A stretch of 50,820 nt of DNA from an uncultured Pelagibacteraceae bacterium (GCA_902589795.1 CACIUJ010000004.1:1-50820), one strand, 5' to 3'; shown: positions 724 through 11,808, numbered from the stretch's first letter. Numbers and translations: made by a program. Notes: generated by a model not told the origin, from the sequence alone.

Positions 724-996
724 TAATAATTCTAGACATATTTTATCAAAATAGTATTAATTTATGCTAATAATCTAATAATTTATGCAAATTTACTAAA
801 TATTTATCGATTTTGGCTTAAAACATAGGTTTTTTGAATTTTATCCATATATTCAAGTTGTATTTTAAGAATATATTTAAGTTTTTATTAGTTTAAATTA
901 TACCTGAGGTTGTGGTTTGCTAATAATAATCACTATAGTTTCAATTTTAGGGCTATATTGTTTACTAATGATAATTGGGAAAACTTATTTAAAATA

Positions 997-2010
997 ATGA
1001 TTAATAAAATAACTGAATTAGCTAAAAATAATCCTAAAATCTCAGATTTTCACTTGAGGGGAGGCTCGGATATTGCTTGCCGGATAATGGGTGACATTGT
1101 TATCGAAAAAAATACAAAAGTTGAAAATAAAGATATCGAAGAACTTTTGAAAAAAAATTGTAGTGAAGAAGAAATTAATACTTTTAAAACTAAGAAGGAA
1201 TTAGATTGCGCTATTATTTTAGATGCGTTTCGATTTAGAGCAAATTTCTATAAAACTCTAAAAGGCTCCGCTGTAGTACTTAGAAAAATTGAAACTAAAA
1301 TTCCTATGATGGATAATCTTAATTTGCCACCCGTTCTTTATGAATTAATAGACGCTCATAAAGGCTTGGTATTAGTCACGGGACCTACTGGATCTGGGAA
1401 ATCTACAACTCTAGCATCAATTATTAACCAAATTAATGAGACCAGAAATAATAATATTATTACTATTGAAGATCCTGTTGAATTTATTCATACAGACAAA
1501 AAAAGTATTGTGTCACAAAGAGAAGTCGGAAAACAGACTGAAAGTTTTGCTAAAGCCTTGAAAGGAGCTTTGCGTGAAGATCCTGATGTTATCTTGGTTG
1601 GAGAGCTGAGGGATTTAGAAACGATTGGAATGGCTTTAACTGCAGCTGAAACGGGACACTTAGTCTTTGGCACGCTCCATACTAGTGGCGCTCCTAATAC
1701 TATTAATAGAATTATCGATGTTTTTCCTCCAGAGCAACAAGGGCAGATTAGAGCACAGATTGCTGAATCTTTAAAAATGGTAGTCACTCAAAAACTGTTT
1801 AAAAAGAAAGATGGCTCAGGCCGTATAGGAGCCTTTGAGGTTATGGCATGCACTCAACCCATCAAAAACCTTATAAGAGAGGCTAAAATACACCAAATAC
1901 CTAGCATAATGCAGACTGCCCAAAGAGAAGGTATGATTACCATGGAAAAGTCTATTGAGGGTCTAGTTGCCTCAGGAGTGATTAATATTGCAGAAACGAA
2001 AACATCATAG
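997..2010 (+). CDS. pilT: Type IV pilus retraction ATPase, PilT/PilU family (ORF extends upstream to 910 with alternative start)
   Basis: Walker A GPTGSGKST, IIEDPVEF-like ITIEDPVEFIH, Walker B DPDVILVGELRDLETIGMALTAAETGHLVFGTLHT; ATG at 997 fits family N-terminus. Confidence 0.88.
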   Translation: MINKITELAKNNPKISDFHLRGGSDIACRIMGDIVIEKNTKVENKDIEELLKKNCSEEEINTFKTKKELDCAIILDAFRFRANFYKTLKGSAVVLRKIETKIPMMDNLNLPPVLYELIDAHKGLVLVTGPTGSGKSTTLASIINQINETRNNNIITIEDPVEFIHTDKKSIVSQREVGKQTESFAKALKGALREDPDVILVGELRDLETIGMALTAAETGHLVFGTLHTSGAPNTINRIIDVFPPEQQGQIRAQIAESLKMVVTQKLFKKKDGSGRIGAFEVMACTQPIKNLIREAKIHQIPSIMQTAQREGMITMEKSIEGLVASGVINIAETKTS

Positions 2011-2674
2011 CGCCTTTAGCTTAATTGAGCTATTAGTTGTTATCGCTATACTAGGAATACTCAGCGCCTTTGCCTTTCCTAATATTTCAAAATGGATCAC
2101 CAAACGAGAAGTTAAAAAAGAAGTTTATGATGTTGTAACTTATATCCAGGAAAGAAAATCGGAAGTTACTAGCGGAAAGTATGGGATGACACTAGTTCGC
2201 TTAAGACCTGACTTAGAAGTTTGGACAATGAGTAGCCAAGATTTTTTTAATACTTATAGAAGTATAAGCTCAAATAGTTCTTATAAAAGAAATAGCCAAT
2301 GTGATTATCCCTGGAGACAAACTGGCTTTGTTAGAAATAAAGATCTTGAAACCTTAAAATTAAGTGTTTCAAATAATGATAGCAAAGTTCATGTTTATCC
2401 TAATGCTGCTCATAATCCAGTTGATACAACAATATGCATTACTAAAGATGGTTCTGTAAGTTATATGAGGACAAGAAAAACTGAGAGAGATCCAAGCACT
2501 CGGAAAAATGTTGATGTATTTATTTTTTGTTCTAAATCAAACTCTAATCAATATAATTGTAAATATAATGCTAATTTTGAACACATGTATAAAATTACAT
2601 TAGATAAATATCAAAATATAAAAGTTTATATAAAAAATACAAAAAAAAATAGCTGGAATAAAATAGATGGATAA
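1988..2674 (+). CDS. Prepilin-like protein, FimT/GspH type
   Basis: Prepilin N-terminus HHSAFSLIELLVVIAILGILSAFAFPN; overlaps pilT end. Confidence 0.75.
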   Translation: MQKRKHHSAFSLIELLVVIAILGILSAFAFPNISKWITKREVKKEVYDVVTYIQERKSEVTSGKYGMTLVRLRPDLEVWTMSSQDFFNTYRSISSNSSYKRNSQCDYPWRQTGFVRNKDLETLKLSVSNNDSKVHVYPNAAHNPVDTTICITKDGSVSYMRTRKTERDPSTRKNVDVFIFCSKSNSNQYNCKYNANFEHMYKITLDKYQNIKVYIKNTKKNSWNKIDG

Positions 2675-3134
2675 ATCAATTAAAGGTATTTCGCTTGTTG
2701 AGGCGCTTGTTGCATTAGTGATAATAGGAATAGGTTTCGTTGCTATATTACAAGTATCCGCTTTTACAATTTCATCAATGGATCGTTCTATGGAGAAAAA
2801 TAAACTTAATTTTTTATCCGAAATGGTTATGGAAGATATGATTGGCAATCCTACAAGTTTATCAAGTTATAATAATTTTAATGAAACTTGTAATTACAAT
2901 ACCAAAGGTGGAACGAACCTCCATGAAAAGCAAAAAGATAAATGGAGAAATAAACTTGCTGAAAAAAACTATATTCAAATTAAAAATTCAAGTGGCGGAT
3001 CTTATAAAGAAAAAAAACGCCCTTGTTTTAATCAAGATAGTAAAAAAACATTTACAACTGATAGGTCTGGGAGAGTTAATTTTAAATCAAATAAAGAAAG
3101 AATAAAAAAATATTTAGGAGTAGTTGTTAAATGA
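2667..3134 (+). CDS. PilV-like minor pilin
   Basis: GISLVEALVALVIIGIGFVAILQVSAF prepilin helix; operon position. Confidence 0.7.
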   Translation: MDKSIKGISLVEALVALVIIGIGFVAILQVSAFTISSMDRSMEKNKLNFLSEMVMEDMIGNPTSLSSYNNFNETCNYNTKGGTNLHEKQKDKWRNKLAEKNYIQIKNSSGGSYKEKKRPCFNQDSKKTFTTDRSGRVNFKSNKERIKKYLGVVVK

Positions 3135-4009
3135 TAAAAATTAAAAATTCTGGATTTACATTGGTTGAAATATTGGTTGCTTTAGTTATTGGTGTAATTA
3201 GCGTAGGAGCTATATTTTCTTCTTACCAATATTTTAATCGAACTCATGAATCAATTTCACAAAAAGCAGCTATCAGTCAGTCAGGTAGAGAAGCTTTGTC
3301 TCTTATAGCGAGCGATTTAAGAAATGCAGGTCACATCGATCCTAACTTTGTAGGAAATTCAAGCGAAGGAATATCATCTTTAAGACAAGCACAACTTAAA
3401 ATGATTGAGGTTAAAAGTAAACATTTCGGAAAATACAAACAAAGCGATTGGCTCAGCATGTGGTACACAACCTCTCCCAAAGATAGAAAGAGAGTACAAT
3501 ATTATCATAAGAAATATGAGGATAGTAATAGCTATTATTTAGCAAGAGACGTAGTGATGAATCCTGAAGGTGGTAGTAATTGGGCACACCCAGTAGATAT
3601 GGAACTGTTTGTTCCATTCGTAGAAGATTTTCAGATCATATTGAAAGATATAAATGGAAATATTTTAGTACCAGTTTGTAGTTCCTGCGGAGCTTTAGAA
3701 CAGTCACAGGGCGCAAATGATAAGGTTGGTGATAGAAATAAAAGTCAAGCCAATATGTTAAAAGTACATACTGCAGAGGTATATCTAACAATAAGATCTC
3801 CAAAAGAAGTTTATAAGGAAAATAAGAAAACAAAAATTGTTAATGGTGAATCTGGCCACGGTAGCAATATAACAATATCCCCTGATGATAAATACTATCG
3901 AGAAACCTTTTTTGTAAGTGTTCATACAAGGAATTTAGCTAAACCATTGGTGCCAACAAGCGCTGGATCCACAACTACTATTAACACAGGAACGATTTAC
4001 AATAAATAA
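3131..4009 (+). CDS. PilW-like minor pilin
   Basis: SGFTLVEILVALVIGVISVGAIFSSYQYF; position between pilV and pilX. Confidence 0.75.
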   Translation: MIKIKNSGFTLVEILVALVIGVISVGAIFSSYQYFNRTHESISQKAAISQSGREALSLIASDLRNAGHIDPNFVGNSSEGISSLRQAQLKMIEVKSKHFGKYKQSDWLSMWYTTSPKDRKRVQYYHKKYEDSNSYYLARDVVMNPEGGSNWAHPVDMELFVPFVEDFQIILKDINGNILVPVCSSCGALEQSQGANDKVGDRNKSQANMLKVHTAEVYLTIRSPKEVYKENKKTKIVNGESGHGSNITISPDDKYYRETFFVSVHTRNLAKPLVPTSAGSTTTINTGTIYNK

Positions 4010-4588
4010 ATGATAAATAAACATAAAAAAAATGAAAAAGGATTTGTATTGCCGGTGGCTCTTTTGGTTTTGGTGGTCATGAGTATTATGGCGGCTTCCC
4101 TGGTCACAATCACATCTAAAGATCACGCTGCTAATAATAGTAAGGACTCAAGCCAGCAAGCATTTTATGCTGCAGAGAGTGGAATTGCTATTGCCAAAAA
4201 ATATATGATTGATGAAAAAAGATCATTTACAGGTTCTGCTCCAATGAATTTGGATAGAGATTTAAGATTCTGTAAAGCAAATCTTTTTCCTAATTTAAAA
4301 CAATCTTATGGAATTATACATAAAAGAAGTAATTTAAGTGAATTTATAAACGCCTCGGGCAAGGAATATACAAGGCTAGGTAAATTTAGCTTTGAATATT
4401 TTATTACCTTTTCACCAGATCAAAGTGGAAACGTAGCATCAAATAAATCGTCGGCTAAAAAAAAACCAGGAACTAGTCAGATTTATTACACAATATACTC
4501 GTGTGGTTGTAATGAAGAAAAAAATATCTGCAAACCAGAAAACAATATTATAATTCCATTGGAAGCCGTGGTAACCTTGGTTGAATGA
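4010..4588 (+). CDS. PilX-like minor pilin
   Basis: EKGFVLPVALLVLVVMSIMAASLVTITSKDHAANNSKDSSQQAFYAAESGIAIA typical PilX N-terminus. Confidence 0.75.
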   Translation: MINKHKKNEKGFVLPVALLVLVVMSIMAASLVTITSKDHAANNSKDSSQQAFYAAESGIAIAKKYMIDEKRSFTGSAPMNLDRDLRFCKANLFPNLKQSYGIIHKRSNLSEFINASGKEYTRLGKFSFEYFITFSPDQSGNVASNKSSAKKKPGTSQIYYTIYSCGCNEEKNICKPENNIIIPLEAVVTLVE

Positions 4589-5103
4589 TGAGAAGATTTA
4601 TACTTTATATAATTGGATTTTTTCTATTAGCACAAGTAAGTGCTTTAGCTTTAAACTGTAACTTAAATAGGATTCAAACTAATACGAGTATTAGTAATTT
4701 TGAAGAAGAGAAAGTATTCTTTTCATATTTTAAAAACCCTTCTGGTGCAAGTTCAATGATGATGCCTATAGAACATTTTTGCAAAGATGATGATACAAAC
4801 GGTATCATATTAACTTTATTTTTTTTAGAAAATAAATTAGTTCGGATTATATTTGAAAATGTTTTAGCCCAAAATAGAATTTTATTTAAAATTGCCAATG
4901 ATACTTACAAAGTTGGTTTCAATAAAAATAATATAAAAATTAGTAGAAAAGCAACAGAAACTTACTCGATTAATAAAAATGATAATTTTTATTTTTATGG
5001 AAATTTTATTGGTAAAAATGAGTTTTTAGAATATTTTGAAATTACTAGCAATAAATATAAAGATAAACTAAACGAAGAACTTTTAAAAAGGGAGGAGCAA
5101 TGA
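4585..5103 (+). CDS. Small secreted protein of unknown function between pilX and pilY1
   Basis: N-terminal signal-peptide-like hydrophobic stretch; overlaps neighbours by 4 nt on each side (operonic). Confidence 0.6.
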   Translation: MMRRFILYIIGFFLLAQVSALALNCNLNRIQTNTSISNFEEEKVFFSYFKNPSGASSMMMPIEHFCKDDDTNGIILTLFFLENKLVRIIFENVLAQNRILFKIANDTYKVGFNKNNIKISRKATETYSINKNDNFYFYGNFIGKNEFLEYFEITSNKYKDKLNEELLKREEQ

Positions 5104-8100
5104 TTAAAAAAGTTGTTACTTTACTTTTACTAATATTATTTTTCCCCAATAATTCATTTTCTAAATCTCCACCACCTGGAACAGGCACGGCTTCTGTTCC
5201 TGCAAATATTTTAATTATGCTGGATAACTCTGGAAGTATGGGATGGGACATTGATGGGAATATAATTAATGCAAATTCTAGTAAAATTTCATTAGCTGCA
5301 GATGTGGCAGTAGATAGCTCAGGCAATCAATATGCTCTTGAGCTCTATACTAGAAAAATCAAAGTTTTTGACTCAAACGGCACATACAAAAAGCAACTTG
5401 GGGGTGGTTATGGGTATGGCTGCAATCAGTGGATTTATGCATATGACATAGCTATTCATAACGATCAAATTTATGTCTTAGATTATTATGGACGACGTAT
5501 AAAAGTTCTATCTCTAACAGGAACATGCATTAAACAAAAAAGCATAAATTATAGTTGGACTAAAGGATTAGCAGTTTCAGATCAGTATGTTTACGTGGGT
5601 TACGGAATGGGAGGAGGAATTGCAATGTATGATAGAACAACACTTAACCATGTCAGAGTGCAATATAATTATAATGAATTTTATCGTATTTATGGATTAG
5701 ATGTAAATGATGCAGGAACTAAACTTGTTACAGCTAATTATAATCGTCACAAAGTTTGTGTTCATACTATCTCTGGATCAAGTCTAGGGTCATGTACAAA
5801 AGTTGGTGTTTCATCTCAAGGTACCGGAAATGGTTATTTTTACTATCCATCAGATGCTGTTTTCGATAGTAGCGGTAATGTATTTGTCACCGAGCTATAT
5901 GGCCACCGAATACAAAAATTTGATACATCCTATGCATATGTATCAAAGTATGGTTCGTTTAATTATAACGGAAATCCTTTTTTCTACCCTTTTGGTTTAG
6001 GAATTTCTTCATCTGATAACATTTATGCAGCTGACTGGGGGAATAATTTAATTCAAGAATTTACCAGCACTTTAAGTTATGTAGGCAGAATTGGTGTAAA
6101 CAAATCCAGAATGCAAATGGCAAAGGCCGTGATTAAAAAACTGGTATCTAATACCGAACTTACGAGTGGAGCAAATTTTGGTCTTATGGAATGGGGTTGG
6201 TACTGGAACCCTTATCTTCGATTAAGAGTTCCTATTAGTTCTAATGGGGCAAAATTAATTTTTAACGATGTTGATCAAGTAAGAGCTTATGGAGGAACTT
6301 ATTTATTACAGGCAATGAATAAAGCAAGAGAATACTACACGGGTTCACAATCTCCTCGAATAGCTAATGCTAAATGTCAATTAAATTACATAATTCTTAT
6401 TAGCGATGGTGTTTGGAATAGTCATAGCAGTGCTATGAGTGTTGTAAAAAATATGAAAAATCAATATGGCATTAAAACTTTCGCAGTAGGTTTTGCCATA
6501 GCATCAGGTAATAAAAATAACTATGAAGATTTAGCCGATAATGGGGGAACCGATGATCCTTTGTATGCTGATAATGAAGGTCAACTACTTACAACGCTAA
6601 CAGATGCCATTAAACAAGCTATATCGGGCACATTAACTTACACAACACCTGCTATAATGTCGGAAAAACAGAGGGGTGATTTCATTTATCAATCTACTTT
6701 TAAATACGCCAAATATAAACAGTGGGAAGGTCATTTAAAAAAAATCAAACTAAATTCTAATGGTAGTTTTGGAGCTACACAGTGGGATGCTGCTGATAAA
6801 CTGAATAAAAAAAGTTATACTTCAAGAAATCTTTGGACTGCGGGGATAAGCACAATAAGTACAAATAATTTTACAACAACGAATAGAGATGAGTTAAAAA
6901 AATTATTATTCCCTAATACAGTACCTACAGATACTGAAGTAGATAATTTAATTAATTTTGTTCGTGGTATCGATACATATGATGAAGATGATGACAACAA
7001 CACCACAGAAACAAGACACAAGCTTGCAGATATTTACCATTCAGATTTAGTTGTTGTGGGTCCGCCTGAAGGATCTACCGAAGATGACGGTTCTTCAAAT
7101 TTTACAAAAAAAGATGCGTATTATCGATCACAAAATAATTATAATGGTTTTAAAAATGGAACCAGTTGTGGAGGAAGCTGCCAAAGTCGAAAAGAAGTTG
7201 TTATAGCAGGTTCTAACGGAGGCATACTTCATGCCTTCGACGCAAGTAATGGTGAAGAATTATGGGGATATATTCCTCCTAATATCTTAGGAAAATTATC
7301 AACTATGGTTTCAAGTAAAGCTAATACGACAAATGCTATTTATGGAATAGATGGGTCCCCAGTTGTTAAAGATATTTATTTTGATGATACGCCTAATAAT
7401 TCTGCGAATGATCCAAGATGGAGAACAATTCTATTATCAGGACTAGGTGCTGGCGGGCATGGTTATTTTGCTTTGGATATTACAGATATTAACTCACCCA
7501 AACAATTATTTACTATAGAACATGATCCTTTCAGACAATTTGTAAACCACTGGGATAGTGATGAAAAACTTACAAAATATGCTTATGAACTTAACTATTC
7601 TAGTTTTAACTTAAATGGTAAACAAATTTTCAAAGGCAATATGCCAGATGAATATGATTACCAAAAACTTGGTGAAGCCTGGTCCACTCCAAGAATTATT
7701 AGAATAAAAGTTAACAACAAAGATAGGTGGGTTGCTGTTTTTGGTGGAGGTTATAATGGTGGAACAAACCCTAATTATGGCTCTACTGTATATGTTATGG
7801 ATTTAGAGAATGAAGGAAAATTACTTAAAACAATTTATATTCCTGATGAATATTGGACTCGACATAACTATTCTTGTTTAAATGCAGAAAAAGGTTCCAC
7901 AGAGTTTGATATAGGAAGAAGTTGTAGCCTGCACAGCTTAGATACTAGTTATTATTCTTTAAGAGTACAAGGTTTAGGAAATGTTCCATATAGTCTTATA
8001 GGTGATCGAAATGGTAACTATCTTAGAAATATGAAATTGAAATTTCAAACTACAGATGCTAATGGCAATCTCGTTGATGTGCCTTTAGAAAATCGTACCC

Positions 8101-8921
8101 ATGTCTATATTAGTGTAGTGCCTAAAACTGATATCGTAAATTCTGTTCCTTCTGACTTAGTAGTTATTACAGCTGATGGAACAAAAGAAGCCGATTATGA
8201 TGGAGCATTAGTTTATGCAGCAGATCTAGAAGGAAAAATTACTAAAATTAATTTAACTGGTTCTAATGCATCTTATCAAACCACAACACTCTTTAATGCT
8301 GAATCAAATACTAACAACGGCAGATATATTTATAACCAACCCGAAGCAGCGATAAACAGTGATAATAAATTGTGGTTATATTTTGGAACTGGAAATACAC
8401 AAAAACTTGGAAATCGATCTAATCAAATTAAGAATCGTGTCTATGGCATAAAGGACAAAGATTTTCCTAACTTTAAAAATATCAGTTCTCCTGGAACCAT
8501 TAGAAAATGTGCGAGAGCACCTACCTGCCCTGGCGGTTATTACGATTTAGGTTGGTATGTAGATTTAAAAGAATCAAGAAAAGTTACAGCAGAACCTACT
8601 GTTTTTAAAGATCGTGTTTATTTTCCTCTGTATGAGCCTGCGCCAGCTAATGCGGTATGTACAAAAGGATCAGCATATTTAAACGCTTATGATAGAAAAT
8701 GTGGAGAAGCCAAATTAGGAGCTTATGGAGTTAAATTAGGACAAGGTGTACTTTCAAAAGTGTTAGTACAAGGTGATAATTTATACATAGGTTTATCCGG
8801 CGAAGCTGATACTTCCGCTGCAGCTGGCTTTGAATCATCTGGAAATTTAATTAAAGGAACTTCTAAAGCTACAAGTGGTAAGGGAGGTGTTCAATTGGAA
8901 GGATGGAAAGAAAATTATTAA
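5100..8921 (+). CDS. pilY1: PilY1-like type IV pilus tip adhesin; vWA domain interrupted by NHL-like beta-propeller, plus C-terminal PilY1 propeller
   Basis: MIDAS DNSGSM (5223-5240), rest of vWA from ~6101 (SRMQMAKAVIKKL ... TYLLQAMNKAREYY ... IILISDGVWN), PilY1 core (VVIAGSNGGILHAFDASNGEELWGYIPPNIL; SPVVKDIYFDD; WRTILLSGLGAGGHGYFALDITD). Confidence 0.88.
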   Translation: MIKKVVTLLLLILFFPNNSFSKSPPPGTGTASVPANILIMLDNSGSMGWDIDGNIINANSSKISLAADVAVDSSGNQYALELYTRKIKVFDSNGTYKKQLGGGYGYGCNQWIYAYDIAIHNDQIYVLDYYGRRIKVLSLTGTCIKQKSINYSWTKGLAVSDQYVYVGYGMGGGIAMYDRTTLNHVRVQYNYNEFYRIYGLDVNDAGTKLVTANYNRHKVCVHTISGSSLGSCTKVGVSSQGTGNGYFYYPSDAVFDSSGNVFVTELYGHRIQKFDTSYAYVSKYGSFNYNGNPFFYPFGLGISSSDNIYAADWGNNLIQEFTSTLSYVGRIGVNKSRMQMAKAVIKKLVSNTELTSGANFGLMEWGWYWNPYLRLRVPISSNGAKLIFNDVDQVRAYGGTYLLQAMNKAREYYTGSQSPRIANAKCQLNYIILISDGVWNSHSSAMSVVKNMKNQYGIKTFAVGFAIASGNKNNYEDLADNGGTDDPLYADNEGQLLTTLTDAIKQAISGTLTYTTPAIMSEKQRGDFIYQSTFKYAKYKQWEGHLKKIKLNSNGSFGATQWDAADKLNKKSYTSRNLWTAGISTISTNNFTTTNRDELKKLLFPNTVPTDTEVDNLINFVRGIDTYDEDDDNNTTETRHKLADIYHSDLVVVGPPEGSTEDDGSSNFTKKDAYYRSQNNYNGFKNGTSCGGSCQSRKEVVIAGSNGGILHAFDASNGEELWGYIPPNILGKLSTMVSSKANTTNAIYGIDGSPVVKDIYFDDTPNNSANDPRWRTILLSGLGAGGHGYFALDITDINSPKQLFTIEHDPFRQFVNHWDSDEKLTKYAYELNYSSFNLNGKQIFKGNMPDEYDYQKLGEAWSTPRIIRIKVNNKDRWVAVFGGGYNGGTNPNYGSTVYVMDLENEGKLLKTIYIPDEYWTRHNYSCLNAEKGSTEFDIGRSCSLHSLDTSYYSLRVQGLGNVPYSLIGDRNGNYLRNMKLKFQTTDANGNLVDVPLENRTHVYISVVPKTDIVNSVPSDLVVITADGTKEADYDGALVYAADLEGKITKINLTGSNASYQTTTLFNAESNTNNGRYIYNQPEAAINSDNKLWLYFGTGNTQKLGNRSNQIKNRVYGIKDKDFPNFKNISSPGTIRKCARAPTCPGGYYDLGWYVDLKESRKVTAEPTVFKDRVYFPLYEPAPANAVCTKGSAYLNAYDRKCGEAKLGAYGVKLGQGVLSKVLVQGDNLYIGLSGEADTSAAAGFESSGNLIKGTSKATSGKGGVQLEGWKENY

Positions 8922-9451
8922 AAAATAGAGGTTTTACTTTAATAGAACTTCTAGTCGTTGTCGCCATCATCGGTATTCTTGCAGCTGTAGGGGTTACGAC
9001 GTTTACTGGGTTTCAGGAGAAGGCAAAAATTTCTGCAACAAAAGCTAATCATAAAAGCATAGTTAAATTTGTTTCGACACAATTAATGAAATGTTCTTTA
9101 GGAGACGAATTAATTTTAAAACAAAATCCTACAACTGATACTCCCGATCTTTGCCCAGATGTTCTTGCTGGTAATGCTAACAAATTTGCAACACAACTAT
9201 CGTATCATTTCAACAGTTTAAAATGGTGTAATCCAATGGGTTGGAAACATAATTCTGGCACTTGTTTAGAAGCTGTAGAAACTTCAGGAACTGTTGGTGA
9301 AGGATATACAGGTGCAACAAAATTAATAACCTCATCTGGATCTTCATCTACATTAACAATTGATACAAAATATTCATGCGATCCTTTGCCTTTAACCGAA
9401 ATATGTCATGGCAAAGGAAAGTCTTTAACTGCTAACATTAAAATAGAATGA
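8903..9451 (+). CDS. Type IV pilin (tandem copy 1)
   Basis: NRGFTLIELLVVVAIIGILAAVGVTTFTGFQEKAKISATKANHK. Confidence 0.85.
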   Translation: MERKLLKNRGFTLIELLVVVAIIGILAAVGVTTFTGFQEKAKISATKANHKSIVKFVSTQLMKCSLGDELILKQNPTTDTPDLCPDVLAGNANKFATQLSYHFNSLKWCNPMGWKHNSGTCLEAVETSGTVGEGYTGATKLITSSGSSSTLTIDTKYSCDPLPLTEICHGKGKSLTANIKIE

Positions 9452-9954
9452 AAATCAAAGCCTTCACCCTCATCGAGCTCCTAGTCGTCGTCGCCATCAT
9501 CGGTATTCTGGCTGCGGTGGGTGTTACGACGTTTACTGGGTTTCAGGAGAAGGCAAAGATATCAGCTACTAAAGCAAATCATAAAACCATAGTTAAATTT
9601 ATGACTAGCGAAATTATGAAGTGTTCGCTTGGTGACTCAAATTTAAATTTACTAAAGTCTAATGGTAATGCTACATCAGTTTCTTGCAATCCATCTTCCG
9701 TTAATACAATAACACTTGGCAGTAGATTTGTAGATCACTTTAGAGGTGCTGGTTTCACAAACCCATTTAATATTGAAGATCAGAACGGAACTGTATATGC
9801 TACTTCAGGAAATTCTCCATGGAAAGGGCAAACAAGAATCGTCAATGCTGGAGGTACTAAAATACAAATTGTAACAAAGTATACTGGTAATGATGGACAA
9901 TGGGGAGGAAATACTAACGAAGTACTCATTGACGAAATAATAGACGATAGATAA
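9448..9954 (+). CDS. Type IV pilin (tandem copy 2)
   Basis: MKIKAFTLIELLVVVAIIGILAAVGVTTFTGFQEKAKISATKANHK. Confidence 0.85.
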   Translation: MKIKAFTLIELLVVVAIIGILAAVGVTTFTGFQEKAKISATKANHKTIVKFMTSEIMKCSLGDSNLNLLKSNGNATSVSCNPSSVNTITLGSRFVDHFRGAGFTNPFNIEDQNGTVYATSGNSPWKGQTRIVNAGGTKIQIVTKYTGNDGQWGGNTNEVLIDEIIDDR

Positions 9955-9956
9955 TC

Positions 9957-10487
9957 ATGAGAGCTTTCACTTTAATAGAACTCTTAGTCGTTGTTGCCAT
10001 CATCGGCATTCTGGCTGCCGTGGGTGTGACGACATTTAGTGGGTTTCAGGAGAAGGCGAAAATTTCAGCCAGTAAAGCTAATTTTAAAAACATAGTAAAA
10101 TTTATAAGCCTTAGTTATTCTAGATGTGAAATAGATGATAAAGTAATGATGAATAATCAATCCGGTGTCTCGACAGATGTAACCAGTGGTTTTTGTAATA
10201 ATAGCCCTCTAGGTGCTTGTCATATTCTTACAGCACATTTTAAATCATTAAAATGGAAAAATCCTTTCACTGACTATTACATAAAAAATAATGTCGATAG
10301 TGAATATGCACTTCATTGCTCTAATTCAGGCTGGCCATCAAAAGAATTAGTTTCAAAAGCGGGTTATATTTTCATAACCAATGTTTCTGGATCTCCCAAA
10401 ACAATGAGGATAGAAATGAGACAAGATAACGACTACAGTGGTAACTGGAGCAAACGCTACTCTAGAAAAGATATTATAATACCTTAA
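9957..10487 (+). CDS. Type IV pilin (tandem copy 3)
   Basis: MRAFTLIELLVVVAIIGILAAVGVTTFSGFQEKAKISASKANFK. Confidence 0.85.
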   Translation: MRAFTLIELLVVVAIIGILAAVGVTTFSGFQEKAKISASKANFKNIVKFISLSYSRCEIDDKVMMNNQSGVSTDVTSGFCNNSPLGACHILTAHFKSLKWKNPFTDYYIKNNVDSEYALHCSNSGWPSKELVSKAGYIFITNVSGSPKTMRIEMRQDNDYSGNWSKRYSRKDIIIP

Positions 10488-10493
10488 ATAATT

Positions 10494-11036
10494 ATGTACC
10501 GTCGAGCTTTTACCTTAATAGAACTCCTAGTCGTCGTCGCCATCATCGGAATTCTGGCTGCGGTGGGAGTGAATACGTTTAGTGGATTTCAGGAGAAGGC
10601 GAAAGTTTCTGCAACAAAAGCTAATCATAAAGCTGTTTGTAAATGGACTAACGTGGAATTAATAAAATGTGATTTAGATAGTTCCGAAATTATTTTTAAT
10701 GGCCAAATGCCTTGTTCAACAATAATATCAAAACTTAGTCAAAACCAACAAGATGCAGCATCAGAAGTGTCAAAAGAATTAATAAAAGGTTTAAAAGATA
10801 AGTTTAAAAATCCTTATGGTGCATATGATTCATCGATGGGAGACAACGCTGTCACGGCTGCTGGATGGGGTAAAGATCGTGATTTAGGCTATACGATAAT
10901 CGAACCAACGACCCATTCTTAAACAGGCAAAGCAATATTGAACATACATACATGTAATAAACTTTCCTGTATTGGACAGTGGTGGAACAATACTAATGAT
11001 AATATAGAAATATGCTGGATAGAAGTGCAACCATAG
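10494..11036 (+). pseudogene. Type IV pilin (tandem copy 4) interrupted by in-frame TAA at 10920-10922; same-frame continuation to TAG at 11034-11036
   Basis: ORF 10494-10922 ends ...TIIEPTTHS*; the same frame continues TGKAILNIHTCNKLSCIGQWWNNTNDNIEICWIEVQP*, giving a paralogue-sized product (~180 codons). Confidence 0.75.
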
Positions 11037-11037
11037 T

Positions 11038-11808
11038 TTAAATTAGGATAAAGTTATATAAATATTCGCCAAAAAAAAAATAAATTACTCCTGCGGTAAT
11101 AATATAAGGACCAAAAGGAATTTCAGATTTTAAACTTCTTTTCTTTTTTAATAATGAGGGCATCACCAACAATAATCCAAGTACTGCTGAAACAAATAAA
11201 ACAAATGGTACAGATGGCCATCCAAATAATAATCCAATACCTGCCATCAATTTTGCGTCCCCTAGCCCCATTCCCTCTACTTTTTTAAATGTTCGATAGA
11301 GATAAATGATAATCCAAATTAATGAATACCCAACAATTCCCCCAATGATGGAAAGAATGATGTTTTGAGTAAACACTAAGGTTAGATCAGGTAAAAAGTT
11401 TTTAAAAAAAGCCAAGAAGATAACTCCAAAGTTTAGTACGTCAGGAATTATAAAGTGCTTAAAGTCAATAAAAAATATCATCACATACATCACCAATAAG
11501 ATAGATAGTAATATTGAAGCAAAATAATTTTGATAATTAAGAAAGATTAATAAAAAACCAGTTCCTATTAACAATTCAATAATAAAATATTGTAGTGATA
11601 TTTTTTTTTTACAGGACCTACATTTTCCATTTAATAAGAAAAAAGAAATAACTGGAATATTATCAAACCATTTAATTTTTTTTTTGCACTTAGGACAGTA
11701 AGAACGTCCAAATAATACTTGTTTTCTTTTTGGTAAACGGTAGATACAAACATTAGCAAAACTACCAGCACATAAACCTATTAAAAAAATAAAAATTAAA
11801 TGTTCCAA
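11038..11808 (-). CDS. pilD: Prepilin peptidase / N-methyltransferase (PilD, A24 family)
   Basis: GLCAGSFANVCIYRLPKR, CPKCKKKIKWFDNIPVISFFLLNGKCRSCKKKIS two CxxC pairs, GMGLGDAKLMAGIGLLFGW. Confidence 0.93.
   Translation of the reverse strand: MEHLIFIFLIGLCAGSFANVCIYRLPKRKQVLFGRSYCPKCKKKIKWFDNIPVISFFLLNGKCRSCKKKISLQYFIIELLIGTGFLLIFLNYQNYFASILLSILLVMYVMIFFIDFKHFIIPDVLNFGVIFLAFFKNFLPDLTLVFTQNIILSIIGGIVGYSLIWIIIYLYRTFKKVEGMGLGDAKLMAGIGLLFGWPSVPFVLFVSAVLGLLLVMPSLLKKKRSLKSEIPFGPYIITAGVIYFFFGEYLYNFILI

Follow-up and report, generated by a model that had tools for sequence, protein, structure and literature searches.

The window analysed here is a 50,820-nucleotide stretch of DNA from an uncultured Pelagibacteraceae (SAR11) bacterium, whose metagenome-assembled genome comprises 826 kb and is 64% complete. 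An open reading frame (ORF) at 5100..8921 on the plus strand encodes a PilY1-family protein of 1,273 amino acids without internal stops, in which Pfam recognised T4P_PilY1, VWA and NHL. Its hydrophobic N-terminus reads as a putative signal peptide (residues 1-22, 5100..5165). Strand beta1 of a von Willebrand factor A (vWA) domain and the DxSxS motif of the metal ion-dependent adhesion site (MIDAS) follow at residues 37-47 (ILIMLDNSGSM, 5208..5240). The initial annotation had placed this motif at 5223-5240; DNSGSM does lie there, but the full strand motif begins at 5208. The loop between beta1 and alpha1 holds an insertion of 288 residues (48-335, 5241..6104), within which a six-bladed NHL-type beta-propeller is predicted at residues 66-331 (5295..6092). 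The vWA domain resumes after the insert, as had been proposed, at S336/R337 (nt 6105). Its remainder (residues 336-508, 6105..6623; Pfam VWA over residues 333-500, 44.5 bits, above cut-off) includes alpha1 (6108-6146) and the MIDAS residues Thr400 (GGT, 6297..6299) and Asp436 (ISDG, 6405..6407). A C-terminal PilY1-type propeller region covers residues ~690-1273 (7167..8918), with a partial match to the PF05567 model at residues 693-799 (43.8 bits against a cut-off of 28.1) and a phmmer match to 3HX6 (E 1.7e-11). All these features are on the plus strand, and the two propellers first suggested, one NHL-like and one forming the PilY1 core, were both recovered.

The NHL repeats of the insert scored 42-48 bits in Pfam against a cut-off of 20, and 16 of 17 homologues matched NHL as well (best E 1.9e-27). 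With phmmer against the PDB, the region 5205-6150 matched the NHL domains of TRIM71 (E 4.6e-27), Thin, TRIM2 and others. A fragment of 538 residues was modelled with AlphaFold2 using alignment A1, which contained the 17 Pelagibacteraceae homologues. The model had a mean predicted local distance difference test score (pLDDT) of 86.6 and a predicted template modelling score (pTM) of 0.65. Along the chain, a strand (13-20 of the fragment) led into the MIDAS sequence DNSGS, followed by about 18 linker residues, six groups of strands (44-309) and a helix (315-327) corresponding to vWA alpha1; strands and helices alternated in the vWA part. The propeller strands were grouped mostly by four into six blades, located at residues ~66-101, 114-148, 154-189, 197-234, 250-285 and 297-331. 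Foldseek against solved structures returned the NHL domains of Thin and TRIM71 with template modelling scores, TM(target), of 0.81-0.85 over the whole target and a root mean square deviation of 2.2-3.0 A. The model thus confirms a predicted complete, closed six-bladed propeller of the NHL type in the beta1-alpha1 loop. The initial annotation had put six NHL-like units at about 5277-6100, within a few residues of the modelled strands. The chain enters at blade 1 and leaves at blade 6, which adjoin in the ring, so that the propeller is grafted into the loop with the vWA fold unbroken, as sequence, the empty-site homologue L010 and structure prediction show. No tandem repeat of note was found in the propeller-coding DNA, which indicates an old propeller and neither a fresh duplication nor an assembly artefact; a recent tandem duplication of blades was rejected on this ground.

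The MIDAS signature DxSxS..T..D is complete in this PilY1 (D42, S44, S46, T400 and D436). In the homologue alignment D42, S44 and S46 were invariant in 38 rows and T400 and D436 in 41 rows, despite overall identities down to 27-30% in A1. The invariance of these five residues suggests a vWA domain that looks intact in sequence despite the insertion. The edges of the insert are defined by a homologue of the same family, L010 (878 amino acids, ORF from 1330 on the plus strand), in which only two residues separate the MIDAS strand from alpha1 (VLDVSGSM-RG-SRLKTMQ). L010 is a natural empty-site control, and it also lacks about 90 residues matching residues 917-1010 of the protein in the window. 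In the tree it occupies a long branch at an open fork at the base, where loss and primitive absence of the insert are not separable.

Among the 197 genomes surveyed in the family, 40 encoded PilY1 relatives, and among 197 surveyed in the order, 65 matched the vWA-propeller profile. Members of a second family of the order (G211, G221 and G235) matched over the full profile length. The insertion site was present in 38 Pelagibacterales loci, a count in which a few genomes enter twice through two collections, and 37 of them carried 265-381 residues there, the exception being L010. The insert occurred in two forms. The shorter form had 265-300 residues, mostly with NHL repeats. The longer form (350-381 residues) was found in proteins of 1,500-1,700 amino acids, mostly from genus g3, and its members (alignment A2) had no NHL match in Pfam. 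One long insert (L021) was modelled as all beta (pLDDT 76.7), and its best fold matches were propellers of several kinds, WD40 and lactonase among them (TM 0.5-0.6). With moderate confidence, the long insert of the g3 proteins is predicted to be a diverged propeller that is not clearly NHL. The propeller is near-standard within Pelagibacterales and hence a lineage trait. Among 385 genomes of the class, close relatives outside the order were seen in only two, both of another alphaproteobacterial family, f25, and the contig ends cut both loci (L188 of G338 and L195 of G469) before or at the site. L188 begins with FVDYIGRGIRR, a sequence similar to the final residues of the last blade. One contig of genus g3 (G043:C1) carries three PilY1 genes within 899-933 kb, at approximately 900-903, 926-929 and 930-933 kb, so that a single small genome encodes several tip proteins.

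For comparison outside the order we used the phylum Pseudomonadota, where PF05567 was present in 90 of 399 genomes and 55 loci (L133-L187) were fetched. None of the 36 outside N-termini with a recognisable MIDAS matched an NHL or NHL-like propeller family in Pfam, which leaves room for propellers too diverged for Pfam, and the insert profile gave nothing convincing at the site. In the 17 proteins whose alpha1 was marked by a FANWY-type motif, and which were therefore measurable, 124-360 residues of other sequence lay between the MIDAS and alpha1. Three others (L149, L157 and L172) had about 10-20 residues there, as read off the comparison with the insert profile. These results indicate that the beta1-alpha1 loop of the PilY1 vWA domain is a general insertion site and a hotspot of variation, of which the propeller is the Pelagibacterales filling. 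Within the sampled proteins a complete propeller at the site was seen in Pelagibacterales only. The possibility that the architecture is standard in PilY1 was accordingly rejected, and the initial suggestion of an unusual insertion holds for the propeller as seen from outside the order, but not for the site, which is not peculiar to this protein, nor within the order. Taken together, the results define a real domain nested within a domain, with sharp boundaries, that is conserved in a major lineage of ocean bacteria and occupies a hotspot of variation in a known family. The 288-residue module is now defined and can be expressed and tested. Insertions at this general site next to the MIDAS would explain some of the diversity among PilY1 N-termini.

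Upstream of pilY1 on the plus strand are a PilT/PilU-family retraction ATPase (910..2010; TIGR01420, 424.6 bits, cut-off 319.1) and four minor pilin genes (1988..4588) that are FimU/GspH-like, PilV, PilW-like and PilX-like. The latter were recognised by N_methyl, by TIGR02523 pilV (45.1 bits, below cut-off) and by weak PilX_N/GspK matches. Four tandem PilA-like pilins follow on the same strand (8903..10922; N_methyl matches for the three that were scanned), and a prepilin peptidase (PilD) lies on the minus strand (11038..11808; A24_N_bact and Peptidase_A24). A PilB-like ATPase frame is located elsewhere in the genome (C22), and the ORF layout of L031 is the same as the upstream order in the window. 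The PilY1-like identity given initially is borne out by PF05567 and by a minor-pilin operon accompanied by PilT and prepilin peptidase. A search for pilT in the 22 other genomes of the genus, many of them incomplete, gave no full match of significance, so the pilus looks like an accessory trait in the genus. The type IV pilus (T4P) operon is perhaps a genomic-island trait in SAR11.

The insert was less conserved than the remaining vWA domain in 91 of 91, 28 of 28 and 35 of 36 pairs in three homologue groups, counts that are descriptive because the pairs are not independent. Mean identities of insert and remaining vWA were 43.8 and 60.1%, 41.9 and 67.0%, and 27.9 and 52.1%, respectively. The ratio of nonsynonymous to synonymous substitution rates (dN/dS) was 0.13-0.32 in the insert and 0.04-0.24 in the vWA domain. 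The insert is under purifying selection and evolves faster than its flanks; positive selection across the whole insert was rejected (dN/dS <0.33). Between L026 and L027, synonymous divergence was 0.16 in the insert against 0.53-0.95 in downstream regions (p 5e-8), and the two shared a tract at about residues 40-480 with third-position divergence far below that of the remaining gene. Between L039 and L040, sharp divergence was confined to about residues 160-240 (blades 3-4), where synonymous divergence was raised (p 3e-4). Both pairs suggest recombination within or near the propeller. The pattern is one of a constrained fold with a changing surface, as expected of a contact surface that changes.

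We propose, with a probability of roughly 0.6, that the protein is a tip adhesin of the type IVa pilus and that the NHL propeller in the MIDAS loop acts as its changeable ligand-binding head. A ligand-binding head is favoured by the domain architecture, the empty site of L010, the invariant MIDAS, the minor-pilin operon, the faster change of the insert, the local exchange and the literature. By homology with PilY1, the C-terminal propeller would dock on the minor pilins, with the vWA domain and its intact MIDAS placed distal to it. The NHL propeller would project furthest, beside the metal site, and most likely binds a glycan or a protein as its target and so anchors the retractable pilus; the vWA domain would carry the load and may add a metal-dependent part of the contact. 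We infer secretion, location at the tip, metal binding and ligand binding, the location and ligand binding by homology to studied PilY1 proteins, and mechanosensing by the inserted propeller, as first suggested, is possible on the same basis. Models of PilY1 complexes place the N-terminal domain at the outermost tip (PMC13190605), and in P. aeruginosa the vWA domain of PilY1 is linked to both adhesion and the sensing of surfaces (PMC8806160, PMC11891296). That many lineages, though not all, have a pilus operon whose tip head diversifies and recombines suggests that some of these cells make contact with specific targets. Some points weigh against this proposal. The placement of the propeller relative to the vWA domain is not fixed by the AlphaFold2 model (pTM 0.65, without inter-domain error). 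The EF-hand-like calcium motif of usual PilY1 proteins was not found here with the pattern D.[DN].D...[DE], which a diverged site might escape. Finally, the faster evolution of the insert could be mere relaxed constraint.

The main rival is that the propeller is a lid or spacer, an "arm" lying over the MIDAS face or giving it shape, with the metal site of the vWA domain as the true binding site. In the vWA-containing pilus adhesins RrgA, GBS104, Mfa5 and PilB, inserted arms lie beside the MIDAS or form a lid on it (PMC7835359, PMC8179133), the MIDAS is fully conserved here, and the unrelated sequence at the same site in other PilY1 proteins suggests that the presence of an insert may outweigh its content. 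A spacer, however, would not require that a closed propeller fold be maintained at 23-50% identity or that the propeller recombine internally, and L010 manages without any insert. We regard this explanation as unlikely, although it comes closest to the proposed ligand-binding head. A separate and more doubtful reading is that the propeller packs on the MIDAS face to form a composite, metal-dependent ligand pocket in a single chain. The protein would then be a bacterial analogue of the integrin headpiece that arose independently, carried at the tip of a pilus that generates force, and the propeller would be the part that changes to set specificity.

Alternatively, the diversity of the propeller might reflect evasion of phages that bind the pilus, or of grazers, and not the choice of ligand; the propeller would then act as a decoy or shield on the pilus tip. 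The insert changes faster and holds most of the recombination, which would fit, as would a T4P locus that is accessory in the genus, with no match in the 22 genomes sampled. Against this, dN/dS never exceeded 0.33. We consider such escape improbable as the driving force, and it is compatible with ligand binding rather than exclusive of it. An enzyme of the lactonase, glycosidase or lyase type displayed at the pilus tip is very improbable. PAM lyase is among the NHL-type propellers in the PDB search, and paraoxonase and lactonase propellers are among the many Foldseek matches of the long-insert group, but no conserved catalytic-looking set was seen: the invariant insert positions in A1 (D50, G53, G83, K251 and P275) are mostly turn residues. 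A chimeric ORF or assembly artefact can be dismissed, as no sign of one was found beyond the 64% completeness of the genome, and single-cell genomes and dozens of species share the architecture in one open frame; a misbinned contig was ruled out by a gene on the contig 75-78% identical to those of same-genus genomes.

The adhesin proposed here resembles the PilY1 proteins of P. aeruginosa and Legionella in its putative signal peptide, its vWA domain with DxSxS..T..D, its C-terminal PF05567 propeller and its minor pilin operon. Those proteins consist of a vWA domain and a C-terminal seven-bladed propeller (3HX6), and the non-Pelagibacterales PilY1 proteins sampled have ~10-360 residues at beta1-alpha1 that match no propeller family in Pfam, where the six-bladed NHL propeller lies here. 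PilY1.1, PilY1.2 and PilY1.3 of Myxococcus xanthus likewise combine variable N-terminal modules (vWA or DUF4114) with a conserved propeller (PMC13190605). In M. xanthus entire N-terminal domains vary, whereas here a domain is nested in the vWA domain; the words "inserted" and "insertion" are absent from the text of that paper (PMC13190605). No relevant literature was found on PilY1 with NHL or on Pelagibacter with PilY1. RrgA, GBS104, Mfa5 and S. sanguinis PilB are also pilus adhesins with arms inserted beside the MIDAS of a vWA domain, but they are not PilY1 proteins; their arms are small (38-123 residues in the first three), lie in other loops (beta4-alpha4, strand C) and are not propellers (PMC7835359, PMC8179133). 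The NHL domains of TRIM71, Thin, Brat and PknD have the same fold and belong to the same repeat family (for TRIM71, Thin and Brat, TM was 0.77-0.85), but they bind RNA or protein as parts of cytosolic proteins or serve as the sensor domain of a kinase, outside any vWA domain. In the integrin headpiece a propeller (alpha propeller with beta-I or inserted alpha-I) likewise adjoins a MIDAS-bearing vWA domain. The alpha-I integrins carry a vWA domain in a propeller and the present protein a propeller in a vWA domain; homology is not claimed. An integrin-binding RGD is present in P. aeruginosa PilY1. An RGD tripeptide also occurs here at 6672-6680 (residues 525-527), in a conserved segment that reads RGD, KGD or RGN in homologues, and is probably coincidental.

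The gene directly upstream of pilY1 (4585..5103, plus strand) encodes a protein of 172 amino acids with a probable signal peptide, for which no family was matched in Pfam, NCBIfam or PHROGs. Homologues were found at the equivalent place in seven loci; the protein evolves fast, but its position directly before pilY1 is conserved in several loci of Pelagibacteraceae. It is a candidate partner or chaperone of PilY1. Downstream, the four PilA-like pilins are near-identical over about 45 N-terminal residues (FTLIELLVVVAIIGILAAVGV.TF.GFQEKAK), and their C-terminal heads look unrelated.

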